NCBI GenBank assembly: GCA_903837355.1
Contig: CAILUI010000342.1
Location: 1-64,000 of the forward strand
Origin: an uncultured Victivallales bacterium
Lineage (GTDB): Bacteria; Verrucomicrobiota; Lentisphaeria; Oligosphaerales; JAFGRS01
Length of the DNA: 64,000 bases
Reading direction: 5' to 3'
This document shows, piece by piece, positions 2,996 through 26,916 of the stretch. The position numbers and the translations under genes were made by a program. The notes beneath the pieces were generated by a model, which did no database searches, was not told the DNA's origin, and saw only the letters and a program-made list of their open reading frames with translations. Numbering within the stretch: position 1 is the stretch's first letter; each line of letters begins with the position of its first letter.

Positions 2996-4165
2996 ATGAC
3001 GTTTCGCGAACTACAGGAGCACGCCGAGCAGTACCTCATTGCCATCATGGGGGGGCGGCGGCATACCGCCTACGACCGCTGCTTCTGTGCGGCGCTGTTC
3101 TGCTTGTCCCGCCTGTACCGCGCCTTGGCACAATTGCGACTGACGCTCTACAGCGAGCGCATCCTGCGGCAGCGGATGCTGGGATGTTTCGTCATCAGCG
3201 TGGGCAACCTGACCTGCGGTGGCACGGGCAAGACGCCGGTGGTCGAGGTCTTCGCGCGCACCCTCGCGGCGCAGGGTCGGCGAGTGGCGGTGCTAAGCCG
3301 TGGGTACCGCAGTCGCTCGCCGCCCCTGCTGGAGCAGGTCCGGGCCTTCTTCTTCAATGACTACGATGCGGCGCCGCCGCGGGTGGTCAGCGACGGACGC
3401 CGACTGCTGATGGACTCCGCCACGGCGGGCGACGAGCCTTACATGCTTGCCAGCAACCTGCCCACGGTCCGGGTGGTGGTCGACAAGGACCGCGTCAAGG
3501 CCGGCCGCTATGCCATCCAGGAACTGGGCGCCGATACCCTGCTCTTGGACGATGGCTTCCAGTACCTGCGGCTGAAGCCGCGCCTGAATATCCTGCTGAT
3601 TGACTCCACGGAGCCTTTCCACAACCACCATCCCCTGCCGCGCGGACTTCTGCGCGAACCGATCAAGAACCTGCGCCGTGCCGACTATGTGTTCCTGACC
3701 AAGTGCGAACTGGGCCGTTCCCTGCACCACCTGCGGCGCTTCATCCACCGCCATAACCCGCGCGCCGAAATCATCGAATGCACGCACCGGCCGATGTACC
3801 TTGAGGACGTGTTCAGCGGCGAACGGCGGCCGCTGGAGGATCTGAAACAGCGCCGCCTGGCCGCGATCAGCGGCATCGCCGTCCCCGCGAGTTTCGAGGA
3901 CTTCCTGAGGCGCCTTGGCGGTGACTTGGTCTATGCGGAGCAGTACGCTGACCACCACCGCTACCGCCAGCAGGAGATCATCGACTTCATCAACTGCAGC
4001 CTCAACAAGGGGGCCGAGATGATCGTCACCACGGAAAAGGACGCGGTACGCTTCCCGCGCCTGGACCGCCGCGATCTGCCCGTCTACTTTCTGCGCGTGG
4101 AGATCGATATCCTGAGTGGGAAAGAGAGTTTCGATCAGTGCATCGCCAGGATCTGCTTCCTCTAG
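2996..4165 (+). CDS. lpxK: Tetraacyldisaccharide 4'-kinase (lipid A biosynthesis)
   Basis: LpxK phosphorylates the 4' position of the tetraacyldisaccharide-1-phosphate lipid A precursor with ATP on the cytoplasmic face of the inner membrane. The 389-residue protein has the family N-terminus with a membrane-associated helix, then [19 protein letters not shown] with the Walker A residues GGTGKT at about 75-80. The LLLDDGFQ motif, the ID.T.PFHN...LPRGLLREP region and the late [10 protein letters not shown] motif follow. The ATG at 2996 is preceded by a GGGGA ribosome site and gives a normal family length; longer in-frame extensions to 2819 are GC-rich and unlike LpxK. It shows that the cell makes lipid A and so has an LPS-type outer membrane. 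No other lpx gene is nearby. The stop is TAG at the end of an ICFL tail. Confidence 0.93.
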
Positions 4166-4376
4166 TGGGGTTGCCAGACGTCGCGACCGCTGCGGCCCAC
4201 CGCGACCCGCCGCGACGGGACAAGCGGCCGCGGGCTGTTGCCTTGCTGCGGTTTCCGCGTACAGTAAGAGAGTGTGGGCGAAGGGTGCTTAGGCGGCAGC
4301 GGTGGTGCCGGTACGTACGGGTGTGGAATGCAGTCGGTGTGGCGGGTTGTCCAAGGCTGGGGATACAGAGGCCAGT

Positions 4377-6158
4377 ATGACCAGGATGATGAGCAGCCAC
4401 AGGCGCGCTTCCAGCGTCTTCGTCACGGGCTTGGCGTTCTGCCTGCTGTTTGGGCATCTCTGTCAGGGCGTCACCGAAGGCACTGAGGTGTCTGAACGGC
4501 GCCTCGCCGTGCTCCGGCGACTGGTCGTGGAGCGCCTTGCCCAGGACGGACTGGAGGCAGGGCCGCTCAGCGTCACGAAGACTGTCCTGACCGCCTTCTT
4601 CAGCGCCGAGCCGGACTGCCCGACCGCGCTGACTCTCGCCGAACCTGTGACCGAGGAGGAGTGCAAACAGGCGGCGCGGCAGATGGCGCGCGACCTGGTG
4701 ACCAAGAAGTTCCCGGATCTGGACATGGCGGCCCTGGAGGCTGAGGCGTCCAAGCTCTTCCCGATGCACGCCGAGGGTGACATCGTCGAGGTGGAGTTCC
4801 AACTGAACCCGGCGCGGCGGGAGCGCCTGCGCGGGCCCTACGCGGGGCGCGGGCCGGACTATATCGTCATCGGGCGGCGGCAGATCATGCTCGCCGACAT
4901 GGAGGCGGTCGAAGACAGCGCGGCCAAGATCCTGATGTTCGACCCGCAGCGCAGTGGCGAGCTGCGCCGGAAGTATGTGGAACAGAAGGTCCAGGCGCAC
5001 GCTGAAGCGCGTGACAAGTACGCCGAATCGGTGCGTCAGATCGCCAAGCGTGAACACTACCGCCTGGGTGCCGAGCAGAACGAGGGCCGTGGTTACGTCT
5101 TCCTTGACGGAGCGTGGTATGCGGTGCGTGACGCGGTACCCAGGATCGTCGAAGCGGAACGGGCCGAGCGGCAGGCCGAGCAGCAGCGGCGTGCCGAGGC
5201 CCTTGCGGCCAGCATTCGGGAGGAGGCTGCGGCGTTGGTGCTGGCGCAGACGGCAGTGGCCGACTTGGGCGCGCCGGTGCGCTGGCGCGATCCGGCCGCC
5301 GAGTTGACCGAGCAGCAGGCGCGAGTGGCGGCGGAGGCCAAACGCCTCGCGGCGGTGGCCGAGGAGGAGGCACGCAAGCAGTCCGATGTCGCCGCCGCCG
5401 CCGAGGCGGCCCGGGTGCAGGCCGAGGCGGCGGCACAGCCGCCGGCAGCCCCGTCCGCCGCCGCCCCGGCAGCGGCGGACGCCGGACTGCCCTGGCTGCT
5501 CATCGTGGTCGCCGCCGCCTTGGTTCTGGTTGCGGCCGGCGGCGCCGTTTTTGCTGTCACCCGTAGCCGGCGGCGGGACCCGGCGAAGTTCTTCGCCGGC
5601 AAAGGCCAGGTGCAGAGCGACTTCTGGGCGATGGCCGAGGCTGACCCTGAGCACTTCCGTTACGTGGCCTATCTTTTCCCATCGCAGCCGGCGGCACAGA
5701 GTGCGTTGCTGCAGCTATCCTTTATCAAAGAAGGCCCAGGCGGTCAGTTGAAGTGCAGTCGCGAGGTTGAGTTCGGCACCTATCCACACCAAGGAAAGCA
5801 CGTGGTTTTCATTGGCGGTACCAACCTCCACTACGCCCTCTGGCGCGAGGCCTCCGCCGTCTTGCCGGAGCTTCCCAATGCCGAGTATTTCCGCGTCAGC
5901 GAAGCCCCTGACGTGATGCTGGAGATCCCGGATATCGAGCAGTTGTTGCGTGATGAGACGCTGAAAGTCGAGCACGTCGAGAACCGTGAGGGTGAGGGGA
6001 AGGACTACTCCCAGTACTACGTCTACCGCGCCCCGGACAAGACCAATGCCCTGGAATTCCTGAAGCGGGCCAATGTTACCGAGGCCGGCGTACACGTTAT
6101 CGTGCAGACGCCAGAGGGGACGTGGGGCAAGGACGAGAACGGTATCTACCAGGAGTGA
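4377..6158 (+). CDS. Unknown secreted/membrane-anchored protein with coiled coil and one central TM segment
   Basis: I do not recognise the family. The 593-residue product begins with a basic stretch and a hydrophobic segment (FVTGLAFCLLFGHL) that looks like a signal peptide. A charged helical domain of about 300 residues follows, then an Ala/Glu/Arg-rich coiled-coil stretch and an Ala-Pro linker. A strong transmembrane helix (PWLLIVVAAALVLVAAGGAVF, about residues 371-391) is followed by an RSRRR stop-transfer. The last 200 residues form a soluble mixed alpha/beta domain. The topology suggests a protein with domains on both sides of the inner membrane. ATG 4377 is chosen because the signal-like segment follows it; ATGs at 4386 and 4389 are equally possible. 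It is convergent with the ABC operon, so it is probably not part of it. Confidence 0.6.
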   Translation: MTRMMSSHRRASSVFVTGLAFCLLFGHLCQGVTEGTEVSERRLAVLRRLVVERLAQDGLEAGPLSVTKTVLTAFFSAEPDCPTALTLAEPVTEEECKQAARQMARDLVTKKFPDLDMAALEAEASKLFPMHAEGDIVEVEFQLNPARRERLRGPYAGRGPDYIVIGRRQIMLADMEAVEDSAAKILMFDPQRSGELRRKYVEQKVQAHAEARDKYAESVRQIAKREHYRLGAEQNEGRGYVFLDGAWYAVRDAVPRIVEAERAERQAEQQRRAEALAASIREEAAALVLAQTAVADLGAPVRWRDPAAELTEQQARVAAEAKRLAAVAEEEARKQSDVAAAAEAARVQAEAAAQPPAAPSAAAPAAADAGLPWLLIVVAAALVLVAAGGAVFAVTRSRRRDPAKFFAGKGQVQSDFWAMAEADPEHFRYVAYLFPSQPAAQSALLQLSFIKEGPGGQLKCSREVEFGTYPHQGKHVVFIGGTNLHYALWREASAVLPELPNAEYFRVSEAPDVMLEIPDIEQLLRDETLKVEHVENREGEGKDYSQYYVYRAPDKTNALEFLKRANVTEAGVHVIVQTPEGTWGKDENGIYQE

Positions 6159-6194: not shown

Positions 6195-6920
6195 TCACGA
6201 TACCTTGCCGACGCGGATGTCGAGATCCTCGCGGCGTTGCAGGCGGTCCACGCCGCCGTCCTTGACCCAGAGGATGCGGTCGGAAGTGGCCAGCATCTTG
6301 TGATCGTGGGTGGCGGTGATCACCGTGACGCCGTACTCCTTGGAGAGGGAGCTGAGGAGGTTGATGATCTCCTCCCCGGTGACGAGGTCAAGGTTCGCGG
6401 TCGGTTCGTCGGCGAGGATGATGGCAGGGTCGTTGGCGAGGGCGCGGGCGATGGCCACGCGCTGTTGCTGCCCGCCTGACATCTCGTCCGGCCGATGGGT
6501 CAGGCGGTGGCCGAGTCCGACCCGGGTGAGGACCTCCTGTGCCCGTTTCTCCGCCTCCTGTGGACTGAGGCCGCTGAACAGCAACGGCAGGCAGACATTC
6601 TGTACCGCGTCGTACGCCGGCAGCAGGTTGTAGGATTGGAAGACGTAGCCGATGTGGTTGCCGCGGAAGTGGGCCAACTGTCGTGGACTCAAGCGCGTCA
6701 GGTAGACCCCCGCGACCTCGACCTCGCCGCTGGTTGGCCGGTCCAACGCCCCGATCATGTTGAACAGGGTGCTCTTGCCGGAGCCTGATGGTCCCATGAT
6801 CGAGAGGTACTCGCCGCGGAAGATCTCCAGGTTGATGTTGCGTAGGGCATAGACCACGGTCTTGCCGAGATCAAACTGCTTATTGACGCCCTGCACGCGG
6901 ATGAGGATGTCCTGGCTCAT
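6195..6920 (-). CDS. ABC transporter ATPase, LolD/MacB family (second ATPase of operon)
   Basis: This 241-residue nucleotide-binding subunit has Walker A GPSGSGKST, a Q-loop in VFQSYNLLP, the signature MSGGQQQR, Walker B ILADEPTANLD and the H-loop ATHD. This pattern belongs to the LolD/MacB/FtsE group that powers FtsX-fold permeases by mechanotransmission rather than classical transport. The start ATG lies 20 bases after the stop of the OPT-like gene, so it is the last gene of the seven-gene operon. It resembles the ATPase at 14367-15179 but is a separate paralogue. Which of the two permeases each ATPase drives cannot be told from sequence. Confidence 0.9.
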   Translation of the reverse strand: MSQDILIRVQGVNKQFDLGKTVVYALRNINLEIFRGEYLSIMGPSGSGKSTLFNMIGALDRPTSGEVEVAGVYLTRLSPRQLAHFRGNHIGYVFQSYNLLPAYDAVQNVCLPLLFSGLSPQEAEKRAQEVLTRVGLGHRLTHRPDEMSGGQQQRVAIARALANDPAIILADEPTANLDLVTGEEIINLLSSLSKEYGVTVITATHDHKMLATSDRILWVKDGGVDRLQRREDLDIRVGKVS

Positions 6921-6940: not shown

Positions 6941-8983
6941 CTAGAACGGCAGTTTGATGGCAGACTTGCTGAGGAACGTGATACCGATACCGAAGGTGGT
7001 GATCAGGCCCATGCCGCAACCGAAGCCCGCGCTCACCACGGGGATATACTGCCGCCACTTGAGGCCCAGGCGCTTCCTGAAGTAAAACTGGCCGATCAGG
7101 GCGCCGATGAACTGGATGACGATGGAGTGGGGGATCGTCTGGCCCAGGCCACGAACCACTCCGTAGGTCAGCATGATGGGCGCATTGAAGAACTGGAGAA
7201 CGCTGAAGAGAAACACTCCGAAGCCGCTGCCGCAGAAGAAGTAGAGTGGGTTCCAGGCCTGCTCGAACATGGAGTACTCGCCCATGGTCGCAGAGTACAT
7301 GATGCAGCGGGTAGCCGCATCCAGTTCCCACATGCGCTGAGCGTAAGGGTAGGAGAACGACGGAATGGGGTTAAGGCCCCAGATGAAGTTCATAAAGAAT
7401 AGGGAACTGATGAGGATGATGGGATAGAGGATGATCTGCGTCTTCCAGATGCTGGTGAACTTGGTGCCGGTCAGTTCACACTGGCGGTAGAAGACGACCA
7501 TCATGCCGTAGTTTGCGATGGGCATGGGCACGAACCAGCAGGCGATGCCCTTGTAGCCCGAAAGGATCAGGGCGGCTTCGCGGATCATCGGGATCTCGAC
7601 GACCTGCCCGACCATCCCCTCGAGACGCGCGGTCACGTAGCTGATGAGGGGCGTGTAGACCACCCCGAGGAAGATCAGGATCCAGAGCACGCGGAAGATG
7701 TCCGGGTGCCATGACCCATGGTACCAACGCAGCAGCCCGACCGAGAGGCCGATGTAGATCCCGGTGACGACGAAGTAGCAGAGGGCGATGGCCCACCAGG
7801 GAATGTCGCCACGGCCCAGAGGGACGGCAGTGGACGCGCCTGCAGAAGCTGCCGCGCTGCCACGAAGGCGGCGCTCGTGGCGGGCGTCGAGCAGGTGGCG
7901 GCCAACCTGCCAGAAGCCGACGACGGCAATGGCCACCGCGATGCCGATGGTGAAGCTGAAGTAGAAGTCGACCTGTGTGTTGAACAGGGTCGCGATCGTG
8001 TCATCGCCGAACTTCCAGTTGGAGAGCAGCCCGACTTTGTAGAGCACCGGGTTGGCGACCGCGGTGATGATGAGGCCGATGAAACTGCCCACCATGCCCC
8101 AGTACGGCATGACCATGCCGAAGATGAGATTGCCGAGGTTCCAGTCGATACCGGTGGCGAACGCCGGCAGGTAACGCCCGGTCTTGCCGGTGAAGTCGGA
8201 GAAGGGAATGGGAAAGATCTGGATGGCCGTACCGGTCAGGGCTCCGGAAAGCACGGGCAGGAGCAGGTAGACGGTCCCGAACGCGAGGCCGATGGCGCCG
8301 CCGATGGCGAAGACGCGCCAGCGCCAGTTCTCTTCAGCGTTCTTGGCCGCCTTGGCCTCGATATCCTCAGCCATGGCCATGATGCCTTGCGCACCCACTG
8401 GAGCCAGGGGAAAGGGCAGTTTCTCGATGTCACTGGTGATGCGGAAGAGGCCGTAGCCGACCACGGTATTGGAGAGCTGGCTGAGGAAGGTGCCCACGAC
8501 CGCCATGATCAGCACCGGGGCCCAGTCCATATGAAAGAAATTGCGCACCCCGTACGACTCGGGATGCTCGGTCGCGTTGGGGGCCACCCAACGCGGGATT
8601 TCGTTGGCGATGCCGTTGGCGGCGGCCGCATCGGATTGCACGAAGAACTGATCCCAGAGCAGGCCCGAAGTTCGGCCGCCCGCCAGGCCCAGGCCGCCCA
8701 TCATGGAACCGGCCATGAAGAAGAGTACGAAGATCTCGCTCTTGTTGAGGTGTTTATGGGCGCGCCGGGCAACCTCGATAAAGAGGATGACCGTTACCCA
8801 CTGCGCGGCGCCGCCGATGCCGACGCCGGCAAGCAGACCCATGTAGATGGCACCGGGTACCATCAGCAGGGCGACAAAGATAGCCCCCAGCAATGACGAC
8901 CAGCGGAAGCCCTCCTCGAAGGTGGAGGGGACCTCCATGATCCGCCGGAATTCCTCGAGCTCGCGGTCAAGTCGCCTTGCCAT
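6941..8983 (-). CDS. OPT-like polytopic membrane transporter
   Basis: The 680-residue protein has a short charged N-terminus and about 14 hydrophobic segments. Features recall the oligopeptide/metal-chelate (OPT) transporter superfamily: a glycine-rich early membrane segment (GAIYMGLLAGVGIGGAAQW), SQLSNTVVGYGLFR, LPFPLAPVGAQGIMAMAE before a cytoplasmic loop, and SYVTARLEGMVGQVVEIP. The usual eukaryotic OPT signature is not obvious, so it may be a divergent OPT relative or a related uncharacterised family. It starts two bases after the stop of the giant permease gene and is followed 20 bases later by an ATPase, so it is clearly co-transcribed with an ABC system. The ABC partners are of the mechanotransmission type, which makes co-occurrence with a secondary transporter unusual. 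Substrate unknown. Confidence 0.65.
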   Translation of the reverse strand: MARRLDRELEEFRRIMEVPSTFEEGFRWSSLLGAIFVALLMVPGAIYMGLLAGVGIGGAAQWVTVILFIEVARRAHKHLNKSEIFVLFFMAGSMMGGLGLAGGRTSGLLWDQFFVQSDAAAANGIANEIPRWVAPNATEHPESYGVRNFFHMDWAPVLIMAVVGTFLSQLSNTVVGYGLFRITSDIEKLPFPLAPVGAQGIMAMAEDIEAKAAKNAEENWRWRVFAIGGAIGLAFGTVYLLLPVLSGALTGTAIQIFPIPFSDFTGKTGRYLPAFATGIDWNLGNLIFGMVMPYWGMVGSFIGLIITAVANPVLYKVGLLSNWKFGDDTIATLFNTQVDFYFSFTIGIAVAIAVVGFWQVGRHLLDARHERRLRGSAAASAGASTAVPLGRGDIPWWAIALCYFVVTGIYIGLSVGLLRWYHGSWHPDIFRVLWILIFLGVVYTPLISYVTARLEGMVGQVVEIPMIREAALILSGYKGIACWFVPMPIANYGMMVVFYRQCELTGTKFTSIWKTQIILYPIILISSLFFMNFIWGLNPIPSFSYPYAQRMWELDAATRCIMYSATMGEYSMFEQAWNPLYFFCGSGFGVFLFSVLQFFNAPIMLTYGVVRGLGQTIPHSIVIQFIGALIGQFYFRKRLGLKWRQYIPVVSAGFGCGMGLITTFGIGITFLSKSAIKLPF

Positions 8984-8985: not shown

Positions 8986-11900
8986 CTATGCGTCCTTGCG
9001 CTGGGGAGTCTGTGCAGCGGTCGCGACGTCACCCTGACCGAGCGCCGTCAGGGTGCGCTCGCGGTAGACCTCCATGGTCTCATGGGGGATGGAGCGCCAG
9101 ATCAGGAACTGCTGCCGCAGGTCATCAAGGAAGACCTTATTGAGGCGGCGCCAGTCCTTCGGTTGCCCCGAGAGCCGGTGGAGTACGACGCGCACCTCAT
9201 CGATGCCAGGGATCTCACTGGGGGAACTGCGCAGGGCGAAGGTCTGGCTGACGCCCAGGTCGAAGGGGGCCAGGGCGAGGGCGGCGTCCAGGCCCAAGAG
9301 GCCGCTGGACTCTTTGACCAGTTGCACGTTGCTGGTCATGAAACGGCCCAAACCTGTATCTGTGTGGTTACCGAAATGCTCGCGCAGGAAGCTGACCACG
9401 CCGGTGATGTCGTAGGCGGAGACAGTGAAGGGAAAGACGAGGTCGAGGATGTCGCCCTGCGGCGCCGGCGGGCGCCACATACGCATGAGCCCGGGGTTGG
9501 CGCTCCGCGAAGCCTTGACTGCGGGGTAGATGGCCGAGACCAGCACGGTAGCCATGACCAGGAGGATGGTCACGATGGTGTTCGTCGAGCTCATGTTCAT
9601 CTCCGGCACGCGGACGATACCGTACTCACTCAGCACGCTGAGGATCTTCAGGGTGCCCTGCGCCAGAAGATAGCCCCCGAGGCCGCCGATCAGGGAGTAG
9701 ACCATGGACTCGGCGAAGAAGAGGGTCGCGACGTGGCGCGGTGCCAGGCCCAAGGCGCTGAAGGTGTAGATCTCCTTCTGGCGGTCGGCGACAGAGCCGA
9801 GCATGGTGCCGAAGATCACCAGGCCGCCCAGCACGATCGGGAAGAACAGATCCTTGGCGCCGCTGGCCTGGAGGACGGTGCCGAGCAGGTGCCGGTAGAC
9901 GCCGTTGTCGCGCGTCGCCGGGATGGGGAAGGGCAGCATGCGAGCGAGGTCTTCGGCGATCTCGACGGCCTCGGTGGTATCGCGGGTGTAGACCATCAGG
10001 CCGTAGAGACTGGCGCCCAGGGACTTTGCCGTCGTGGCCGAGACCACGACCACCTGGTCGACGGGGAGGCTGGCCCAGTTGCGCTGGGTCATCATCTCGA
10101 CCTCTTCGTTGTTCTGCGTGGTCTGCTGGGTACTGCTGGCCTCGGTAAAGTCGGCCGGCAGGATGCTGCTGGTGTCCATATCCTTGGCTGCCGAGATGCG
10201 TACCGCGTCCAGGAGCTGGCCGACCGTCAAGCGCCGCCCCTTCATCAGCACCTCATCCCCGGGCTTGACACCGAGGGTACTGGCCACGGCACTGGTGATG
10301 AGGACGGTCTGGTCATCGATGGCACCGAAGAACTGCTTCATATCGGGGCGCTGCGCGACCTCGCTCGGGTCGATGCCGAGGACGCCCTTGATAGTGACCG
10401 GCTGGCTGGCGTCGGTGCAACTGACCAGCTGCCCCGGGTCGTTCTGGGTTCGCGGCGAGATCCACAGCCGGCGACAGACCACCAGACGATCCCCCCAGCG
10501 GCCCTTGATGATGTCGCGGAGGTCTTCGCTCAAGGGCTGCCAGTTGACATTGTGGACGAAGATCCCCGAGTACGAGGGGTTGGGAGCACTGAAGAGGGTG
10601 ACGATGCCGGACTGAGTGCCAAAGGAGGCGAAGCAGAGGATGGTGAAGGTCAGGAGCACGATGGTGATGGCGGTCAGGGCGGTCCGTAGAGGGCGGCGGC
10701 GCATGGTGGAGATGCCCATCTGCATGGCGGCGAGGAAGGTGCTGACGCTCGAGACATCGGCGGCGTGGACGGTGGCGGTCATCCCCTGCAGGGCCTTGAG
10801 CTCATACTCGAACTTGCGCATGATGATGAAGATGACCATGGCGCTCATGACCAGGATGGCGAAGCCCAGGAAGATGATGATGGGCGTGTTGGCGATGGCG
10901 AAGGCGGGATGACTGAGGTAGAGAATCGTGAAGGTGAGGGCGAAGAAGACGCCGAACCAGGAGATTTGGCGGTACACCGTCGTGGCGCCGACCACAACGC
11001 GCTCGAGGGCGAAGGCGAAGGGCACCGACAGACCGAGCAGAATGAGCACGGCAAAGACGAGGTCGTCGAGCATGCTGCGGACCTTGCGATACACCGGTTG
11101 CGAGGCCCAGAACGCACTGGTGACGAGGGACTCCCGGCGCATCGGAGAGGCCTCCGTGCGAGACTCGATGAGGATGTCCTCCGAGCGCCCATGCAACTCC
11201 GCCAGGCTGCTGTCCTGGATGCCCTTGCTGCGCAGGATGGCGAGACGGGACTCGTTGAGGCGCCAGAGGTCAGCCGACGAGCGCGCTGGCACATCGATGG
11301 TCGGCGGCAGGCCGGTCATGGCGAAGCCTTCCCCAATGGGGTCCCTGACCTCCTCCTTGTCATCGAGGACCTCGGCGCCGCTGTTGAGACCCACCAACTG
11401 CCGCAGGCTGAAGAGCTTGACGCCGCGTTCACGGTCTTCGCTGTACCACGCCACCATGCCGTCGGCGGTTTGCGTGTACGACTTCTTGCGGTCCAGGTCG
11501 GCGTTGGCGCGGGCGCCGAGGACCTTGACCTCTTCGCCGGGCAGCTTTTCAGTGCGCAACTGCGGGGGCAGCGCGGCCTTGCCCTCTTTGCAGCGGAAGA
11601 CGTTCAGGCGCCAGCGTACGGTCTGGAACGAGTCGATATCCGAGACTTGGGTTACCTGCCCCTGCGGGTTAAAGATGGCGGCAAAGCCGCCGGCGACGGC
11701 CCACATGCCCCAGCCGCCCTTGACCGGCCCCAGGCCATAGACGCCACTGCGGCTGGTGCGCAGGATCTGGAAGTCGTCGTATCCGGCCGGCTTGGACGGC
11801 GCGTAGGCCAGAGAGTAGTTGGGGCGCAGGCGGAGCTGCACGGGAGCACTGGGCATGGGCGTATTGGGAATGGAGCTGCCGGGGAGGAGGCCCATCACCA

Positions 11901-14366
11901 TCGGTCCGCGCACGGTTCCATCCTTGAAGGATGGGGTGATGTACTCCTTGGCGGCGACGATATTCCGACGCAGCGAGAGACCGGGCTGATTGGCCACGGC
12001 GGCTTCCTCGTGGGCCCCGGCGCCACAGAGCAGATGGGCAATGTCGGCGGCCTGTTCGGCGATGACGTCGGCCTTGAGGTTCGCCAGGGTGTCGTCCGGG
12101 GTGCCCTCGCGCGCCAGGCTCTCCTGGGCCGTGCCGAGGGCAAGGTTGTAGATGCCGGACAGTCCGGCGATCTCACCACTGTGAATGAGGAAGGGGGGGC
12201 CCCAGAGGACACGGGTCTGCGGCAGGTTCTGGTTCGCTGAGGCCGCCAGGAAGTGCGTGCCCGTACCATCGGCTCCGGCATAGGCCTCATGCGCTTTGAG
12301 GAAGGTCGACTGGATTTTGCCGTACAGGCCCCAGTGGTCTTCATTGGAGCGCAGCGAGGACTCGCCACCGATGACCAGGCCCCAGGTTGAGGTGGTGTCG
12401 CCGAGCATCAGGGAGGCGTGCAGGCCGATCCAGGCATTGCCGATCAGAAGCAGCATGTCCTCGTCAGCCTTCAGGGTGGCGAGTTCCGCGGTCATCTCCT
12501 GCTGGCGGAGGCGGATGTCCTCGCGGAAGGACTCCAGCACGATGGCCAGCTTGCTGCTGATCAGGGGACTGAGGACAGGCTTCTCCTTGCCGCCGAACTG
12601 GCGCTTGAGGCGGCCCAGAATGCGCTGCAGGTCGTTCCAGGCATCCTTCTCGGGTTCGATCTCCGTATCGACGCTCTTGCGTATCGCGTCGAGGCGGGCC
12701 TGCACCTCCGCCGGCGGTGTCTCACCGCGCTCGCGGTACTGCTTGCGCAGGAGGTTGGCCTCGTCGCGTAGCTTGTAGGAACTGTCTTTGAGCAGATAAG
12801 CATGCCCCTTGGACTTGTCGCTCAAGCGGTCGAGGAGTTCCCGGCGGACCTTGCCAATGTCCTCGAGTTCGGTTGTGTAGTCCGCTTCAAGGGCCTCGCG
12901 GACAGTACGGAATGCGTCCTTCTGGGCGCGACTCAGGCGGGCCGCGGCAGTCTGTCCGGCGACCACGGGCTGGATCACCTCAGCCCCCTGGTCGAAGGTT
13001 GCCTTGACCTGGAGGCAGCGCTCGGCAAGTTCGAGGCGGAACGCGGCCAGTTCGGCGGTGTTCGGGCTGCGGGCCTCGAGGTCGGCCTGCTGCTTGAGGT
13101 CGGCGGCCAGTTGCTGCAGAGCGGCGCTGCTGTCGGTGGCTTTGGTGGCCAGGGCCTGCGTCACCGTTTCCCGCACCTTGGGCAAGTTCTCGACGGTGCC
13201 CTTCCTGGCGAGCGACGTGAAGGGGCCCCCGGCGAAGAACGCCTCCTCGCCGCGGCGCTTGTCGATGAACGTGATGACGCTAAGCCGGGAGCGGACGTCC
13301 GCCTCGGCGGCGAGTGGCTCGGGGCTGTTGGCGAGGGTCATCAGCTTGCCGAGGAAGATGTTTTCGTCCTCCCATGACTGGCGGCGGGTCTTGACCGTGT
13401 GCTCGGTCTTCTCGGCTTCCAGGGCCCGGTAGAAGGCGCTGACGCCGGCGTGACCGCGGGCCTGGTTGTCGAAGAAGGCGAGGAGGATGTGCCGCCGCGG
13501 CCGCTGCTGTTTGATGACTTCGGCGATCTGCAGCAGGGCGGCGCAGTTGGCGGCCCCGCGGGCGCCGGGCGCGAGATTGGGCACCTCGCCAAAGCTGTCG
13601 AGGTTGGCCGCCAGGATGATCAACTCCTCCTTCTCCTGATCGAAAATCGGGTCTGTGCCACGGAAGTAGGCAAAGAGGTTGCGGCCAGTAGCGCCCTGCC
13701 AGACGACTTCGCTGTGGATCACCGCGTCCTTGCCATCGGGGATGTCCGTGGCGGGGCCGTCGTAGTAGAAACGGGGTAGGTTGGTGCTGCATTCGACGTA
13801 GTGTGCGTGCTGGCTTTCGGCCGGGCCGCCCTGCGCGAAGATGACGGCCTGGGCACCAAGGCGGAAGGCCCGGAGCCAGGTGTCGCCCGTGTTGTAGTCC
13901 ATGACCACGATCGCGCCACGCACCGACGTGCGGTCGAACTCATCGGCCGTGGCTTTGCCGACGTGCACGACGCGACCGTTGACGCCGCCGGTCGGAGTCA
14001 CGGGGGGGATAATGCCATTTGGGCGCATGGGCTGCAAGGGCAGCGGCGTCGTGCTGCCCGCGATCAGGACATCGCAGCGTTTCACGAGCGTCTGGGTGAC
14101 CGGGAAAGGCTGTTCGATGACCTGGTCCGGCCCGATCTCCCGCAGGCGCCCGACCACATAGTCGGCGGCGCGGGCCGCCTCCGGCGTGCCGCTGAGGCGG
14201 TGTGGCGTCGCGGTCAGTGCCTCGCAATCGGGACCGAAGGCGGCGGTAGCGGGGCGCAGGCCGAGAGTGACGGCCAGGATCCACCCGCCCAGCACGATCA
14301 GCCAGCGGACAGGGCGTCTCAGGCTCATGAGCGATGGCGCTTTCCGGTTGTCGGTCCAGTCTCTCA

Positions 14367-14370
<4 letters not shown>
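8986..14370 (-). CDS. Giant FtsX/MacB-type permease with N-terminal degenerate M28-peptidase-like domain
   Basis: This is a 1,794-residue protein. A membrane anchor or signal segment lies at about 22-44. An M28/PA-like periplasmic domain follows at about 45-330, then an alpha-helical coiled region (about 330-640) and a beta-rich region to about 1080. Several TM helices occur around 1100-1185, followed by RRRPLRTALTAITIVLLTF near 1230, a MacB-type periplasmic domain, and the FtsX C-terminal TM set (about 1500-1610). A C-terminal tail of about 180 residues ends the protein. In the M28-like part the metal-site motifs are altered: the HxD position reads NLDS, the GAxDN position reads GARGAAN, and the EE position reads FFDNQARG. 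Peptidase activity is therefore unlikely. Its ATG overlaps the stop of the upstream ATPase gene as ATGA, indicating coupled translation. It probably forms an envelope machine with that ATPase; the role is unknown. Confidence 0.75.
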
Positions 14371-15179
<809 letters not shown>

Positions 15180-15209: not shown

Positions 15210-16685
15210 TCACTCGATACGCATGGCTTCCATCGGCGCCAGCCGGGCCGCCTGGTAGGAGGGCAGTACCGCGGCCACCGCCGCGAGCCCCATTCCCATG
15301 ATAATGCTGGCGGCCATACCGGCGAGGAGTTCCCCGGCCGGCATCGCGCCGACGAAGTTGATGCCGAAGGCGGCCAGCATGCGCCCGACGGCGATGAGGG
15401 TTCCGAGAATGGCGCCGACGCAACCGCCGACAATGCCCAGGAAGGAGCTCTCCATCACGAACATCAGCATGATGAAGCCGTCCAGCGCGCCGAGGCACTT
15501 GAGGGTGGCAATCTCCGTGAACCGCTCGGTGACCGTCATGAGCATGGCGTTGCAGATGCCGATGCCGCAGACAAGCATGGAGACGAAGAGGAGCCAGGCC
15601 AGGCGTTCGCCGAGGCCCATGAAGCCGCGTCCGGCGTCCATCGTCAGCCGCTCGGCCTGGAGCAGGTCGGCGTTCTCTTTGCGCGCTTCGGCGAGGCTCA
15701 CCAGGCGATCGGCGGTGAGTCCGGCGGTCTCCACGCCGCTCTCGGTCATACGGGTCAGATAGCGGGCTGAAAAACGGGCACTGTCGAGGTATTTCCACAG
15801 CATCAGGACGTTCACGTCGGCCGGCATGACATTGCCCTGCTGCGCCAGGAGTTGCCGGCACTTCTCACTGTCCATGGTCTTCTCGAGGCGAATGACGTCA
15901 AGCAGTCGTTTGGCCTGTTCGGCGACGACCGGGGCCACGGCTTGGGCGTCGAAGATGAAGCCGGCGGCGCGGACGGTGTTGCCGAAGTCACCCTCGCCGA
16001 CGGCGAGCGCCTCCAGGACGGATTTCTGGCCGAGGCTGCCGGTGATCTGCGCGATGGCCCGACGACGACCGTCGAGGATGGCCTGAGCGTCGACCAGGAG
16101 CTGCGGAGTACGCATCAGGAACTGCTCCAGGTCCTCGTACGAGGTGACGAAGCGCACCGACTTGATGTGCGACAGCGCCGTACGGAAGTCCTGCATCCCT
16201 TTCTCCGTGCTCAGGCGCTCGAAGATCTCGATCCCGCGGGCGGTGTGGATCGCGGACCGACGCTTGGCATAGTCGAGGTCGGCAAAGAAGGTCATATAGG
16301 CGATGGCCAGGACCGCATCGCGGTGGAAGGCGGCCATGCGTTCGACGGGGAGAGCGCCGAGGCCCTGCATCTCGCGAAAACGGTCATCGCCGGGTTGCAG
16401 CGCGGCCAGGTCGGTGAGCACCGATTCGAGGGACCCGGGGTTGGTCAGTCGGGCGCTCCAACTGTAGACCAGACGCATCTGGGCAATGCGCTCACGGGTA
16501 TTGCTGGCCACGGCGCGCTTGATGAGGCTCTCGCCCAGGATGTTCATCAGGAAGGCCACCGCCACGGCGATGACGGCCACGGTCACCGAGGCGCGAAAGA
16601 GGCGGTAGCGGATGCCGTCCACCGTGATCTTCACGGTGCGCGCCAGGCCCAACCAAGGCTGATCCGCGATCTGGATTTGTTTCAT
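15210..16685 (-). CDS. FtsX/MacB-type ABC permease
   Basis: The 491-residue protein has the four-TM MacB layout: one N-terminal helix (about 32-51, ASVTVAVIAVAVAFLMNILG), a long periplasmic region (about 52-357) rich in helices, and three C-terminal TM helices (about 358-480). The C-terminal part has the FtsX family pattern TERFTEIATLKCLGALDGFI, LGIVGGCVGAILG and a closing ARLAPMEAMRIE. The periplasmic region is all-helical rather than the usual MacB Porter/Sabre fold, so the ligand is likely to differ. Its ATG overlaps the stop of the PqqD-like gene by four bases, and an ATPase gene follows 30 bases downstream. Confidence 0.82.
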   Translation of the reverse strand: MKQIQIADQPWLGLARTVKITVDGIRYRLFRASVTVAVIAVAVAFLMNILGESLIKRAVASNTRERIAQMRLVYSWSARLTNPGSLESVLTDLAALQPGDDRFREMQGLGALPVERMAAFHRDAVLAIAYMTFFADLDYAKRRSAIHTARGIEIFERLSTEKGMQDFRTALSHIKSVRFVTSYEDLEQFLMRTPQLLVDAQAILDGRRRAIAQITGSLGQKSVLEALAVGEGDFGNTVRAAGFIFDAQAVAPVVAEQAKRLLDVIRLEKTMDSEKCRQLLAQQGNVMPADVNVLMLWKYLDSARFSARYLTRMTESGVETAGLTADRLVSLAEARKENADLLQAERLTMDAGRGFMGLGERLAWLLFVSMLVCGIGICNAMLMTVTERFTEIATLKCLGALDGFIMLMFVMESSFLGIVGGCVGAILGTLIAVGRMLAAFGINFVGAMPAGELLAGMAASIIMGMGLAAVAAVLPSYQAARLAPMEAMRIE

Positions 16686-17065
16686 GAGCGGTCCCGTATC
16701 ACGATCGCCAACACGCCGCGTTGGATGAGTTTCTGCAGGTACCCCGTGACCGCGGCCCGTGCTTCATGGAAGGTCAGCCGGTGCTCATCCTTGAAACGGT
16801 CCACGATCTCCTCCACCGTCAGCTTGCCGTCGCACCACTGCCAGACCTGGCGCCCCAGCGCATCCAGTCCGATCTCTCGTTCCGCCGAGTAGGGCACAGC
16901 CCACGAGATGGGGGGCACCAACCAAGGCGGTCGCCGACGCTTGACGTATAAAGTGACGCCAGTCGAGCCATTTTCCACCGCCCTGGCGGCGGTATTTCGG
17001 GTGGGCTGGGCACGGAGCATGCCCCCCCAATCCGCTTCGCGGCCCAGGTCGACGGCGTCGCTCAT
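16682..17065 (-). CDS. PqqD-like (RiPP recognition element fold) small protein
   Basis: The 127-residue product has an unstructured N-terminal half and a C-terminal PqqD-type winged-helix domain (about 65-122). The domain shows IGLDALGRQVWQWCDG, LTVEEIVDRFKDEH and a final ALTVTG-like helix with LQKLIQRGVL. PqqD domains usually hold the leader of a peptide substrate for a radical SAM enzyme. None is present in this operon, so another binding role is possible. The start at 17065 overlaps the stop of the preceding gene (ATGA), and the stop overlaps the permease start in the same way. This tight coupling implies it works with the ABC components. The domain call is firm; the function is not. Confidence 0.75.
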   Translation of the reverse strand: MSDAVDLGREADWGGMLRAQPTRNTAARAVENGSTGVTLYVKRRRPPWLVPPISWAVPYSAEREIGLDALGRQVWQWCDGKLTVEEIVDRFKDEHRLTFHEARAAVTGYLQKLIQRGVLAIVIRDRS

Positions 17066-17940
17066 AGCGTCACCTCCAGGTCGGGGCAACAGCTCAGCAC
17101 GCCCGGTGGTTTCCCGTTCCGGCCACGATCCCTGCTGCGATAGGCTTCACGGTAGATCTGGTAAAGCCGTCCATCGCGTGGGCAGATCCAGGCGCTGGAG
17201 GCGACTTCACGGCGCCCCAGCAGCAGGTCGGGAAGGCGCGGAATCTTGCGCTCGGCACGGATCGTTGCCACGCTATGGCCATGACTGTCCTGCTCGCGCT
17301 CGAAGGTGGTGCGGAAGCCGCGTGGCGCGCTCCGCCGCAACCAGCTTGGCACAGGCTCGTGCAGCCACTGGGGCAGGAGCCCGCGCCGGGCGTAGCGCTC
17401 CCAGGTGCGGCGGCGCTCCGAGCTGAAGGTGAACTGGGCGAATGCCGGATCGGCGTTGCAGTGCTCGAGGAAACTGCCGGTGCGGGTCAACAGGTCCATC
17501 CCGAAGGCGCGCCAGCGGACCTGGCCCGCGGGCGTTGGCTCCTCCGCCCGTAGCGACCCCAAGACCTGCGCCTCGGTGGGTTCATGTCTGGCCTTTGGCC
17601 ACAGGAAGACGACTTCCACGAGGCAGCTCAGGGGAGCCAGGTAGCCGCCGTAGCGCGAGGTGGCGCGCCGGTCTGGCAGGACCCCATAGACCCCCGGCCA
17701 GCCGCCGCATTGCAGACGCCGCGTCTCCAGGATGCCATCCTCGTCCAGCCGCGAACGGTAGTCGGCCAACATGCGCTCGAAGTCGGGTGCGTTCGGGACC
17801 ACGCTCCAGTTGATTTCAAAGCGGAATTGGCTCCGGTCCGCGAAGGCGCAGCGCCCCAGCTTCGGGTTACGGGTGAACTGCAGCAACTCCCATTCCTCAG
17901 GGAGCTCCACTCGCAGTTGACGCCAGACCCAGCTCTGCAC
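17062..17940 (-). CDS. Unknown protein, first gene of the ABC/OPT operon
   Basis: I do not recognise the family. The 292-residue protein has no signal peptide or TM helix and is rich in Trp and Arg. It begins with WVWRQLRVELPEEWELLQF, then GRCAFADRSQFRFEINW, a pattern of a soluble beta-sheet domain. The C-terminal half has LPDLLLGRREVASSAWICP, with a few Cys that could bind a metal. The GTG start at 17940 is chosen because AAGGAGG lies six bases upstream and the frame beyond it is GC-biased without domain features. It overlaps the PqqD-like gene by four bases. It probably acts in the cytoplasm with that protein, but this is inference from coupling only. Confidence 0.7.
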   Translation of the reverse strand: MQSWVWRQLRVELPEEWELLQFTRNPKLGRCAFADRSQFRFEINWSVVPNAPDFERMLADYRSRLDEDGILETRRLQCGGWPGVYGVLPDRRATSRYGGYLAPLSCLVEVVFLWPKARHEPTEAQVLGSLRAEEPTPAGQVRWRAFGMDLLTRTGSFLEHCNADPAFAQFTFSSERRRTWERYARRGLLPQWLHEPVPSWLRRSAPRGFRTTFEREQDSHGHSVATIRAERKIPRLPDLLLGRREVASSAWICPRDGRLYQIYREAYRSRDRGRNGKPPGVLSCCPDLEVTL

Positions 17941-18869: not shown

Positions 18870-20471
18870 CTACCGGCCCGGCGTGGGGGCCGCAGGGTAG
18901 ACGCGGAAGCGCAGCGTGCAGGTTCCGGCGTCCGGGGGCGGCCGCAGGTGCACGAGGCCCTGGGCGTCTCGTTTCCAGGTCACCGCGCGTCCGTCCTCGA
19001 GTCGGGCTTCGAGCGTTGGCTCCGCCGTCGGCGGGAACCAGACCAGCGTGTCGCCTTTGACGGGGTCGGGTTTGAAGCGGAGTTCCATCCAGCCGTCCTG
19101 ACAGGAGGCGGCCAGCGGCGTGCCGGCGATGGCGCGCAGGCCGGGCCGGGTCAGATGGACGAGGGCTTCGTCGCGCAGGAGCACGTCCCAACTCCAGGCG
19201 GCCCAGCCGGCGAGGTGGGCGTCGAAGGCATCCAACTGGTCACGGAAGAAGCGCGGATTCGCGAAGGCGGCGGCCGAGGGGCTGCACCATTCCCCGAACC
19301 AGACGGGCAGGCCCAACCGGGTGCCGCTGTCGACGCCACGCTGAATCAGCCAGCGCCCGCGTTCGGCGTTGCCTTCGTAGGCCAGGCCGATCTCGGTCGA
19401 GGTCTCGTAGTAGTGGGGTGCGAAGGCCACGTTGGGGTGGGGGGTGCCGTCGGGTCGCCGCGGCGTCTGCAGGGCGGTCTTGACGCCGCAGCCTGCCAGG
19501 ACCATCGGTTCGAAGAAGCAGATGTGGTTCGGGTCGACCTCGCGGATGGCGGTTACCAGGCGGTCGTGGAAAGGCTGCTGCTTGGCGGTCTCGAAGCGCT
19601 GGACCGCGGGCTCCAGGTCCCGGAACAGCCCCTCCAGCACGCGCAGATCCTGGAGCGGCGCCGCCAGTTCCGCGAACTGCGCCTGCGGGTCGGGGCTGGC
19701 GACGGCCGCCATCCACTTGCTCAGCGTCCCGGGGCCGGAGGTCTTGCCGACCCAGGCGAAGAGCGCTGCCAGGATCGAGGCCATGTCGGAGCCGACGTAG
19801 GGCTCGTTCATCAGGTCGTAGCCGACCACGGTAGGGTCGTCGCGGAAGCGCCGGGCCACGTGCTGCCAGGCCTTGATGTAGTGCGTCTGAATGCCGACGC
19901 CGTCAGGGCCGGGGGCATCGGCCCAGAAGGCATCGAAGCAGGCCATGACGGGCGCGGCCAGGTAGTTCAGGCCCCAGTACGGCGCCTGGGTCATGGGCAG
20001 CCCCTTGTCCTGGCAGGCCCAGGCCGGGGCGCCATCGCCGCCGTAGCGGCGCGAGAACAGGTCCTGGTGCATGTCCAGAACCGCCCAGACGCCGGCCGCG
20101 TGGCAGATGGCCACCAGCTCTTCCAGGCGCTTCAGGTAGGCCTCGTCGTAGGCGCCCGGCGTGGGCTCCAGCCCCTCCCAGACAAAGACCAGGCGCATGC
20201 AGTTGAAGCCCCACGCGGGGTTCCGAGTCGGCAGTTCCTGCTGCAGGGGCCCGTAGACGTTGACCCCATCCTTGGCGATGTTGCCGGTGTTGAAGCCGCG
20301 CAGGATGACGACGCGACCCTGCGGGTCCACGATGTAAGGACCCTCGGTGCGCAGGAAGCCGCCGGCGGGGGGCTCGGCGGCGTGGGCCAACCCGGCCGTG
20401 GCCAGCAGCCACAGCGCCAGCGCCGCCAGGAGCCGGCGCGGGGTTCGGGTCGATGTAGATGAAGCGAGCAT
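18870..20471 (-). CDS. Secreted GH5-type glycosidase (endoglycoceramidase-like)
   Basis: The 533-residue protein has a signal peptide (RRLLAALALWLLATAGLAHAA) and a GH5 TIM barrel. It contains RGFNTGNIAKDG, FNCMRLVFVWEGLEPTPG and LDMHQDLFSRRYGGDGAP, which is typical of the endoglycosylceramidase branch. The likely catalytic acid is E223 in LMNEPY and the nucleophile is E394 in WFGEWCSP. A small beta-sandwich of about 90 residues closes the protein. It should cleave beta-linked glycans outside the cytoplasm, but the natural substrate is not evident from sequence. The ATG at 20471 has GGAG five bases upstream; the longer frame to 20849 runs through REP-like repeats and is not coding. It is divergent from another glycosidase. 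Confidence 0.85.
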   Translation of the reverse strand: MLASSTSTRTPRRLLAALALWLLATAGLAHAAEPPAGGFLRTEGPYIVDPQGRVVILRGFNTGNIAKDGVNVYGPLQQELPTRNPAWGFNCMRLVFVWEGLEPTPGAYDEAYLKRLEELVAICHAAGVWAVLDMHQDLFSRRYGGDGAPAWACQDKGLPMTQAPYWGLNYLAAPVMACFDAFWADAPGPDGVGIQTHYIKAWQHVARRFRDDPTVVGYDLMNEPYVGSDMASILAALFAWVGKTSGPGTLSKWMAAVASPDPQAQFAELAAPLQDLRVLEGLFRDLEPAVQRFETAKQQPFHDRLVTAIREVDPNHICFFEPMVLAGCGVKTALQTPRRPDGTPHPNVAFAPHYYETSTEIGLAYEGNAERGRWLIQRGVDSGTRLGLPVWFGEWCSPSAAAFANPRFFRDQLDAFDAHLAGWAAWSWDVLLRDEALVHLTRPGLRAIAGTPLAASCQDGWMELRFKPDPVKGDTLVWFPPTAEPTLEARLEDGRAVTWKRDAQGLVHLRPPPDAGTCTLRFRVYPAAPTPGR

Positions 20472-20890
20472 TGTGGCTCCGTCGTGCCTGCGCTGGTGTG
20501 CCAGCCTCCGAGCGGCGCCAAGGCAAGCGAACTGGCTCGCCCTGCGCTCCGCGAAAGCGGTGTCTGGCCACCGCACTCCAAAGTACCCCCACGTTGTTGG
20601 GGTGCGGTACGATGCTGTATGGCGCAGCCATACCTTGGAGTGCCGGCGGCTTGACGCCGCTTTGGCCGCCTTCGCGGGCGGCGACGCACCTCGCCTTGGC
20701 GCCCTACGGCGGCTTCGGTCCAACGTTACCATCGGCCCTCTTCCTTGACTCCGCCAGTTGCGGAGCGAGCTTCCCGTGTGACAGCCCCGAGGGCAGATCT
20801 CCATCAGCGAGGGATTCCGTGGCCATGACCCTTCTGCAGCGCGCCCCAATGACGAGTTTGTTACATTTTATCGTAGAGTATTTTACACCC
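20472..20890. repeat. Divergent spacer with REP-like palindromes
   Basis: The spacer holds at least two REP-like units. One at 20551-20583 has GCGGTG...CACCGCACTCCAAAG. One at 20634-20664 has CTTGGAGTGC...GCGGCTTGACGCCGC. A hairpin-prone GTACCCCC...GGGGTGCGGTAC lies between them (20583-20610). Related units recur at 22898-22970. The right end (20860-20890) is AT-rich and may hold the promoter of the rightward gene. Confidence 0.6.
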
Positions 20891-22855
20891 ATGCGTAGCC
20901 TCCTCGCGGTGTACCTGCTCGGGGCGGTGGCGCTGCGCGCGGCCGAAGGCCCGGCGGCCTGGACGGCGGACTTAGAGAAGGGCGTGCCTGGCGGCTGGCA
21001 GGCCTATGGCGAGGGCTGCACGCTGGAGGTGAGCGCGGGGGCAGCGCACGGCGGCACGTACGCCTTGCGAGCGCGTTTCGATGACGCTTCGGGGGCGGCC
21101 TGGGCCAACAAGGGCGCCCGCCTCGAGATGCCGCCTGGGCTGAGCTGGGCCGATTTTCGCTATGTCCTGCTCTACTACCACCTCGATCATGCCGCCCAGG
21201 CCATCGGCGTCCTGCTGCATGACCGCGCCGGCAACTGGTGGCGGGCGGCAAGCCCCGGCCCCGCGCTGGGGCAGTGGGCCCCGGCCGCCGTGAGTAAGGC
21301 CGCCTTCGCCTATGCCTGGAATGACGATCCGAACCAGCCTCCGGGCAGCAAGGACGGCGAGATCAGCGAACTCTTCCTCTTTGCCAACACCGAGGCGGTG
21401 AACAGCGGCGCGCGTTACACGCTCGGCCTGGACGACATCGCCTTCTGCAACGCCTTGCCGGATGGGCTGGAGGCGCCGGCCGCCGCGGCGCCGACCGCCG
21501 CGCCGACCCTGCCGCCGGAGGAGGGTGGCCCATTCCCTCTGCAGTGGCGGGTTACGCACATGGATGCCCGCGGTTACCTCACCGTCGACGGCCAGCCGTT
21601 CTTCCCGCTGGGCATCTACTCGTGCCTCGGCATCGACCAGGCCTCGGGCGCGCATTCGACCAGCCAATTCAGCGGCCCGGTGACCGAGGCGAAGGTGCGT
21701 TTCTGGCTCGATGCCGTGCACGATGCCGGCTTCAACTTGCTGCAGACCTATACCATGCAGTTCTACGGCACCGAACTCCGGCCCGGCGTCCTCGGCCCGT
21801 GGAACCCCGAGGACGTGGTTCAGGCGAGCACCCCGGAGACCCTGCGCGCGGGCACCCTGCGGCTGCTGGACCTCTGCCAGCGCCACGATCTGAAGTTGAT
21901 GGCCGGCAGTTTCCAGCCCTACTGCGCGATCTCGCTGCCGGCGGACCCCGCGGCTCGGGCCGCGGCGCTCGCGGAGTGGCAGGCGCGCGTGCGGCCCAAT
22001 GTGCTGGCCTGGAAGGCGCACCCGGCGCTGTTGGCCTGGTACCTCACCGATGAGCCGTCGTCGGTGAACCAGCCGGTGGCTGATTTGCGGGATCAGTACC
22101 GCTTCATGAAGGAACTGGACAGCGAGCACCCGCTGCTGATCGCCTCGTGTGCCGAGTCGGATCTGCAGTACGCCCGCGCCGTGGACATCATCGCGCCCGA
22201 TCCCTATCCGATCGAGACCGGCGTGCCGCTGCGCGAGCTGCCGGCCCGCATTCGGCCGTTGCGGGCGGTGGCGACCGGCGCGCCGCCGCTGCCGCAGACC
22301 TGGGCGGTGATCCAGGTCTGCCAGTGGGTCGAGGGGCGCCGCCTCCCCAGCGAGGCGGAAATGCGCCTGCTGGCGCTGAGCGCGCTGTCACAGGATGTCA
22401 CCGGCCTGCTCTTCTACGAGTTTCGCAACTACCCGGACAGCAACCCGGAGCACTGGCAGCGGATCGGGCGCGTGGTGCGCAGCCTGCAGACGGTGATCCC
22501 CGCGCTGCTGGCGCCGGGAGCCGCGGTCCGTACGGTTGCCGCCAGCGACCGTCGGGTCTATGCCCTGGCGAAACAGGTGGGGACTGGCGCGGGCGCCGTG
22601 GGCTGGCTGATCGCCGCCAACCCCTCGCAGAACCTGGCCGGCGAACCCATGGCACTGGGGCAGGTCAGCTTCACCCTGGACTGCCTGACTCTACCCGCGG
22701 GGGCGGTGGCGGTGGCACTGGACGAGGATGAGAGTGGCCAGTTCCACCCTGGTGGCCGGCGGCCGGTGACGCTGCGGCAAACGCCACAGGGCCTCGTGCT
22801 CAGCGACGCTTTCGCGGCCCTGGCCGCGCATGTCTATCGCATCGGCGTGGAGTAG
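20891..22855 (+). CDS. Secreted glycoside hydrolase-like TIM-barrel protein with N-terminal jelly-roll domain
   Basis: The 654-residue protein starts with a signal peptide (MRSLLAVYLLGAVALRAAEG). A carbohydrate-binding jelly roll (about 20-195) and a Pro-Ala linker follow, then a (beta/alpha)8 domain that opens with YLTVDGQPFFPLGIYS. The barrel shows FNLLQTYTMQFYG, LLAWYLTDEPSS with a likely catalytic Glu in the DEP motif, and a VDIIAPDPYPI strand. A C-terminal beta domain ends it. The layout matches GH2/GH42-like and related uncharacterised secreted families and resembles the product at 42329-44317. ATG 20891 is chosen from the signal peptide; its ribosome site is weak, and an ATG at 20850 is possible. 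Substrate unknown. Confidence 0.75.
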   Translation: MRSLLAVYLLGAVALRAAEGPAAWTADLEKGVPGGWQAYGEGCTLEVSAGAAHGGTYALRARFDDASGAAWANKGARLEMPPGLSWADFRYVLLYYHLDHAAQAIGVLLHDRAGNWWRAASPGPALGQWAPAAVSKAAFAYAWNDDPNQPPGSKDGEISELFLFANTEAVNSGARYTLGLDDIAFCNALPDGLEAPAAAAPTAAPTLPPEEGGPFPLQWRVTHMDARGYLTVDGQPFFPLGIYSCLGIDQASGAHSTSQFSGPVTEAKVRFWLDAVHDAGFNLLQTYTMQFYGTELRPGVLGPWNPEDVVQASTPETLRAGTLRLLDLCQRHDLKLMAGSFQPYCAISLPADPAARAAALAEWQARVRPNVLAWKAHPALLAWYLTDEPSSVNQPVADLRDQYRFMKELDSEHPLLIASCAESDLQYARAVDIIAPDPYPIETGVPLRELPARIRPLRAVATGAPPLPQTWAVIQVCQWVEGRRLPSEAEMRLLALSALSQDVTGLLFYEFRNYPDSNPEHWQRIGRVVRSLQTVIPALLAPGAAVRTVAASDRRVYALAKQVGTGAGAVGWLIAANPSQNLAGEPMALGQVSFTLDCLTLPAGAVAVALDEDESGQFHPGGRRPVTLRQTPQGLVLSDAFAALAAHVYRIGVE

Positions 22856-22897
22856 GGCGTCGCGGGGGCAACCACCGAGGCGCGACAGGGGCGCGAC

Positions 22898-22970
22898 TCT
22901 TTGGACTGCGGTGGCTCGACACCGCTGTGGCGGCTCGGAAAGCTGCGTCAAGCCGCAGGCACTCCAAAGA
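22898..22970. repeat. REP-like inverted pair
   Basis: Two related units face each other: CTTTGGACTGCGGTGGCTCG..CACCGC on the plus strand and, inverted, GCGTCAAGCCGCAGGCACTC..CAAAG. They match the units at 20551-20664 in core sequence. They lie between a plus-strand stop and a minus-strand stop, so they may aid transcript ends. Confidence 0.6.
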
Positions 22971-23026
22971 CGCTACGCGTCGGTAGGGGATCGCGGCGGT
23001 CCTGGCAGTCCGGCTATGCCCTTCCC

Positions 23027-26878: not shown

Positions 26879-26916
26879 GGCTCGTCTCTCCTGGGCGGGG
26901 CGTGTGGGGCCGCGTC

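Follow-up and report, generated by a model that had tools for sequence, protein, structure and literature searches.

The window, meaning the whole 64,000-nucleotide stretch of DNA analysed here, carries a unit of seven genes on its minus strand. In operon order, these encode (i) U355, a tandem PsbP/Mog1-like protein of about 292 aa (17062..17940), (ii) a PqqD-domain protein (16682..17065), (iii) FtsXa, an FtsX/LolC/MacB-type permease of 491 aa (15210..16685; PF02687, 47.5 bits), (iv) LolD1, a LolD-type ABC ATPase of 270 aa (14367..15179; PF00005, 106 bits), (v) BIG, a protein of 1,794 aa with a degenerate M28-like N-terminal part and a C-terminal FtsX permease (8986..14370), (vi) P680, an OPT-like polytopic membrane protein of 680 aa (6941..8983), and (vii) LolD2, a second LolD-type ATPase (6195..6920; PF00005, 124.7 bits), whose place at the end of the unit is conserved. 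From FtsXa to LolD2 the genes follow one another on one strand, neighbours being separated by no more than 30 bases or overlapping slightly. A previous sequence-only reading of this DNA had not described a unit of seven genes. Two of the starts require comment: LolD2 probably begins at the ATG at 6920, while the longest U355 ORF opens at 18129 and homology sets in near codon 59 of that ORF, where a GTG (17940) behind an AGGAGG is the likely start. A further ORF, U542 (5654..4026), was first counted in the operon and then discarded; it has no Pfam match and looks spurious.

Elsewhere in the window, ORFs at 23626-27124 resemble, by eye, a subunit of a corrinoid iron-sulfur protein and a corrinoid activator that carries a ferredoxin domain; a DUF3786 gene (Pfam) adjoins them, and together they are perhaps a Wood-Ljungdahl gene set. 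The intergenic flanks at 20450-20750 and 22830-23000 give translated peptides that look similar by eye, a possible interspersed repeat.

The PqqD-domain gene runs from an ATG at 17065 to a TGA ending at 16682 and encodes 127 residues. A GGAGG lies immediately ahead of its ATG. The gene shares an ATGA with each of its neighbours: the U355 stop overlaps the PqqD start (17065-17062), and the PqqD stop overlaps the FtsXa start (16685-16682). The sequence-only reading held that the gene is translationally coupled to an FtsX-type permease. The overlap on which that claim stands is read directly from the DNA; coupling of pqqD with its neighbours is what the two overlaps suggest.

That the protein is PqqD-like, as first proposed, is borne out by both sequence and predicted structure. 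It scores 39.2 bits against PF05402 (E 8.9e-10), above the cut-off of 23.4, and all 36 members of its family alignment match PF05402 at E <=0.01. It is the sole PF05402 match in its own genome assembly (9.6 Mb in 466 contigs, 95% complete, 8% contaminated). The NCBIfam equivalogs for named PqqD families (PQQ PqqD, lasso and others) all stay well short of their cut-offs, at 20 to 26 bits, and the window PqqD therefore falls outside those named types.

An AlphaFold2 model of the protein (pLDDT 90.6, pTM 0.78) has the RRE fold. We looked for a fold unlike PqqD and did not see one: VIA-align places the model on 6jx3_B (Z 11.4, 85 aligned residues, 1.9 A), on 5v1v_A (Z 11.4, 88 aligned, 2.5 A) and on PqqD 5sxy (Z 9.3). 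Among the best matches, those covering nearly the full domain are mostly leader-binding RREs, the exception being the top row, 8hkr, part of Rv2067c (Z 11.7). Foldseek gives one match below 0.001, to the leader-bound TbiB1 structure 5v1v (5.7e-4), and its TM-scores, taken by query length, are modest: the rows for lasso B1 proteins and for PqqD 5sxy have 0.51 to 0.56. A PDB search with the single sequence returned TbiB1 alone (E 0.67), and one with the family profile gave a lasso PqqD-family chaperone as its best match (E 7.4e-5). Winged-helix domains without known peptide function, such as GATOR1 subunits (Z 7 to 8), also match the fold. Conserved residues particular to this family include F99, H100, E101 and W55.

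U355, the first gene of the unit, has no Pfam family. Its predicted structure (pLDDT 93.6) consists of two PsbP/Mog1-like domains, both of which find fold matches, up to Z 13.2: residues 149-296 match 2xb3 (Z 13.0) and residues 8-146 match 5h7y_A (Z 12.9). PsbP, T6SS immunity proteins, Mog1 and Eag chaperones are among the matches, with SciW (6xrr) at Z 10.4; Foldseek returns TplEi and PsbP entries at E 3.2e-5 to 1.1e-4. DUF1795 matched none of the 31 family members at E up to 0.1. No hydrophobic segment was predicted in either the window PqqD or U355, and among their relatives one passed the threshold in 1 of 36 PqqD proteins and 1 of 31 U355 proteins. With no membrane segment predicted, the two proteins are probably cytosolic.

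The two proteins are joined in a single ORF at four loci, in Phycisphaerae (L125), Verrucomicrobiia (L129), Puniceicoccaceae (L141) and Verrucomicrobia (L146); Pfam places the PqqD domain at the C-terminus of the L125 and L146 fusions. The fusions occupy three positions in the tree, with unfused neighbours at each, and no other single observation speaks as strongly for a joint action of U355 and PqqD. Among 74 distinct PqqD proteins, 50 adjoin a U355, 4 are fused to one, 7 lie at a contig edge and 13 have no detected U355; one of the 13 (L053) does have a U355, just past the distance limit of our rule. In four loci (L120, L123, L126 and L127) the U355-PqqD pair lies behind LolD2, not ahead of FtsX. 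U355 is the first partner of PqqD and the permease only the second, a point that the sequence-only reading missed. Lone U355-PqqD pairs were also observed, with no FtsX or OPT gene in the analysed stretch (L163, 3796-4987; L164, 6135-7191).

In BIG, PF02687 matches residues 1510-1622 (44.6 bits), and the N-terminal part matches the M28 structure 3iib (E 3.9e-5). Three sites that hold metal and catalytic residues in M28 enzymes, as H-x-D, D and E-E, align with BIG. In the alignment of 57 BIG sequences these sites are mostly changed: a few retain the His of the first site (L079, L081, L089, L094, L117 and L135), and the acidic pair is absent from nearly all, L089 having D-E. The alignment thus indicates the loss of most metal-ligand positions, and the N-terminal part is likely to be a dead peptidase domain, conserved as a pseudo-peptidase. 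P680 has 11 hydrophobic segments and a conserved N-terminal tail; it scores 22.4 bits against PF03169, just under the cut-off of 25.8, and 10 of 14 members of its family alignment match PF03169 at E <=0.01. Some genomes also have a DUF6785/DUF6784 membrane protein, located either upstream of U355 or in between PqqD and FtsX. Such proteins were seen in or beside the operon at L093 (580-2670), L130 (647-2710), L075 (257-2395) and L052 (11104-13179), called by Pfam for L130 and L075 and by resemblance for the other two. The window's own genome also contains a paralogous FtsX/LolD/BIG/OPT operon (contig C406, 5500-22500; L159), which has no PqqD or U355 match and whose OPT protein lacks the tail motif.

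The operon ranges over Lentisphaerae, Kiritimatiellae, Verrucomicrobia and Planctomycetota. A PqqD match (E <=0.001) occurs in 34 of 98 near genomes, the window's own counted. The order U355-PqqD-FtsXa is found in 25 of 37 fetched loci; ten of the others are divergent or paralogous and two are cut by a contig end or the fetch limit. As an independent anchor we used the OPT-like protein in a scan of named genomes, from which 80 loci were kept of at least 501 relatives. Their labels include Lentisphaerae, Victivallales, Kiritimatiellae, Verrucomicrobia, Planctomycetota and Phycisphaerae, and nearly all are MAGs; a strain among them is Oligosphaera ethanolica DSM 24202 (L078). Within these 80 loci, kept of at least 501, 36 have a PqqD of the system; 4 of these are fusions, and in the other 32 PqqD is a gene of its own, with FtsX also in view. 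The remaining 44 comprise 15 with FtsX in view and no PqqD, and 29 with no FtsX in the analysed stretch. For 20 of these 44 the whole genome was searched: PqqD was found elsewhere in 15 and nowhere in 5.

In a set of 240 genomes from across the phylum, 45 are matched by the PqqD profile, 42 by the OPT-like profile and 39 by both. An OPT-like protein is present in all 37 genomes with a strong PqqD match (>=40 bits); the other 8 of the 45 matches are weak (<40 bits). Two weak cases differ in kind: in G220 the match is located in the operon, while G218 has a full OPT protein, yet its sole PqqD is canonical and adjoins a radical SAM gene. An OPT match without a PqqD match occurs in three genomes (G176, G211 and G005), that of G005 being a fragment. 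Fisher's test for this co-occurrence gives 2e-38, a value that ignores kinship and is overstated because the genomes are related. In a tree of 86 PqqD proteins, 76 of the system type lie on one side of a branch with 95/93 support and 10 others lie opposite; the tree is midpoint-rooted, built from few columns, and has several long branches.

These counts also set limits on the unit. Five of the 20 genomes searched in full have an OPT locus and no PqqD at all, and the C406 operon is PqqD-free. Because some PqqDs lack a U355, and because in some genomes PqqD is sited away from the operon, a strict complex of all seven parts would not hold for every genome. The profile by which many PqqDs were scored had some of these proteins in its training set.

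The sequence-only reading also held that neither a radical SAM gene nor a precursor peptide accompanies the PqqD gene, and both points stood up. PF04055 matches nothing on the window's contig (C342); the 50 matches in the genome are all on other contigs. In the window and 117 loci, the CX3CX2C motif occurs in 19 of 4,027 ORFs of at least 150 aa, none of them a radical SAM protein by Pfam, in a step that is blind to genes cut at contig ends. The search for RiPP enzymes covered the radical SAM class. In 20 further stretches, one PqqD of the system (L171) has an RlmN gene 3.6 kb away. Ten of the 20 were centred on weaker or secondary PqqD matches (L175 to L184) and serve as a control: a radical SAM ORF adjoins PqqD in 8 of these 10, and Pfam confirms all eight. 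In the two exceptions, the PqqD of L180 belongs to an operon of the present type, and L175 (genome G232) carries a pair of PqqD-like ORFs with no CX3CX2C motif over 10 kb. Since 8 of 10 weaker matches have an adjoining partner, the search is able to reveal such partners. The two PqqD-like ORFs of L175 (4754-5360) are adjacent and group with the canonical proteins in the tree.

The check for small ORFs near homologues covered 1.5 kb flanks on either side of 64 operons and found no conserved precursor ORF among 2,557 short ORFs compared all-vs-all. Clustering in three or more loci was seen for 385, of which 345 lie within longer ORFs. The other 40, judged by eye, are cut LolD2 ends, same-genome duplicates and low-information pieces; the negative result thus depends partly on inspection.

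A candidate ligand for the PqqD domain lies within the unit itself. The N-terminal tail of P680 is conserved as DKELEEFRxIMEVPSTFEEGF, with a hydrophobic-x-x-P...G spacing. Lasso leaders carry the motif YxxPxLxxxG, which this spacing recalls. The ELEEFRxxM part is absent from the PqqD-free OPT paralogs (L159, L161 and L162), a correlation between tail and PqqD that is suggestive only. The source genome of L162 (G112), and likewise G239, still has a separate U355-PqqD pair; the tail is present in nearly all OPT loci, whether or not PqqD is seen there; and its invariant columns (7 of 30) are no commoner than those of several membrane parts. A PqqD domain acting as a constitutive docking site within the transporter, holding the tail of the OPT-like subunit, is quite unlikely. 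If it were true, a leader-recognition fold would have turned into a standing subunit contact, or leader recognition would have derived from such docking.

We consider it probable that U355 and PqqD form a cytosolic two-part adaptor of an inner-membrane ABC machine composed of two FtsX permeases, two LolD-type ATPases and the OPT-like protein. This reading draws on evidence at the level of sequence: the predicted fold, the seven-gene order, the fusions, the co-occurrence with OPT, and the absence of nearby radical SAM and precursor ORFs. In such a machine, (i) the adaptor would attach to the double FtsX/LolD assembly, (ii) the RRE groove of PqqD would dock a linear segment of a machine partner or of cargo, and (iii) the ATPases would work the FtsX pair on something periplasmic, by mechanical transmission of the MacB/LolCDE type. 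Recognition of a peptide or partner by PqqD is putative and follows from the fold. The proposal that a leader-binding domain was recruited to an ABC machine is partly supported: gene order, co-occurrence, fusion to U355 and the lack of radical SAM or precursor ORFs nearby all favour the recruitment.

Three other explanations have to be weighed against the adaptor. PqqD could be purely structural, a winged-helix-like subunit in which another surface binds U355 or a permease loop and the groove is vestigial. The family-specific residues (F99, H100, E101 and W55, among others), the extra residues before strand 3 and the GATOR1 matches are all compatible with this, but the best near-full-domain matches, 8hkr aside, are mostly leader-binding RREs, and we regard a purely structural role as fairly unlikely. 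Very unlikely, in our judgement, is an orphan RiPP pathway, in which the genome would produce a peptide at another site, PqqD would bind its leader, a distant enzyme would modify it and the ABC machine would export it. In its favour, the protein has an RRE fold with leader-bound structures among the best matches, the genome has its 50 radical SAM matches on other contigs, and ABC exporters often go with RiPP clusters, according to PMC7470986. Against such a pathway stand the lack of a conserved short ORF within 1.5 kb of the 64 operons, the broad conservation of an operon with membrane proteins of its own, and the radical SAM neighbours that 8 of 10 weaker PqqD matches in the phylum do have.

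The association could also be incidental, the gene being a neighbour retained through operon inheritance in one clade. Gene order is vertically inherited and the association tests ignore kinship; however, PqqD is held at two operon positions, before FtsX or after LolD2, is retained on another contig or off the operon in other genomes, and is fused to U355 at three places in the tree, which leaves an incidental association barely credible.

The cytosolic adaptor, if confirmed, bears on how RREs are read in surveys, where they are used as markers of RiPP pathways. PMC7470986 regards a PqqD-like protein as strongly indicative of a RiPP cluster when regulators, enzymes and transporters are close by, and a marine survey (PMC9902471) counts PqqD-like transcripts among RiPP core genes; a whole type of PqqD serving an ABC machine in these phyla would be miscounted by such a rule. 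The operon also offers a conserved, defined system for asking what purpose an RRE fold serves outside RiPP biosynthesis, and it is present in the cultured Oligosphaera ethanolica (L078). The fold is known, as is the kind of transporter; the conserved use of an RRE-type domain within this transport unit had no precedent in the open-licence literature searched. That search, of titles and the starts of abstracts and including PMC12710340, returned no description of the operon and no paper on DUF6785, and PMC12283558 makes no mention of PqqD, FtsX, lipoprotein, DUF6785 or OPT.

Each part of the unit has known relatives from which it differs. BIG resembles M28 metallopeptidases, weakly, through its N-terminal part; the aligned positions, metal-binding or catalytic in those enzymes, are mostly changed in it. 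P680 resembles OPT transporters in that most members of its family alignment match PF03169, the window protein itself scoring just under the cut-off; it differs in occurring with FtsX and LolD genes. A second membrane protein, DUF6785/DUF6784, joins the operon in some genomes. Both halves of U355 share the fold of PsbP/Mog1 proteins, including the Eag (DUF1795) chaperones, which stabilize effector transmembrane domains according to PMC12881460 and PMC7773334. U355 differs from these in having two copies per chain and no sequence-family match, and in its linkage or fusion to PqqD.

FtsX permease domains and LolD-type ATPases are shared with ABC transporters of the MacB, LolCDE and FtsEX types. 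In contrast to these, the operon has two unequal permeases, one bearing the degenerate M28-like domain, and two different ATPases, along with the OPT-like, U355 and PqqD proteins. Its scores also lie below the curated cut-offs for LolCDE (TIGR02212, LolCE: 44 bits for FtsXa against 362; TIGR02211, LolD: 218 bits for LolD1 against 308). A better LolCE match lies on contig C303 of the same genome (284 bits, also below 362); the machine need not be, but may still be, the lineage's LolCDE. With PQQ PqqD and the discrete RREs, such as TbiB1 and the lasso B1 proteins, the window protein shares PF05402 and the fold. It differs from them in that no radical SAM enzyme or precursor ORF adjoins it, in additional residues at its N-terminus, where a W..ML...P..N motif is conserved, in its extra residues ahead of strand 3, and in the company it keeps: U355 and an ABC machine.
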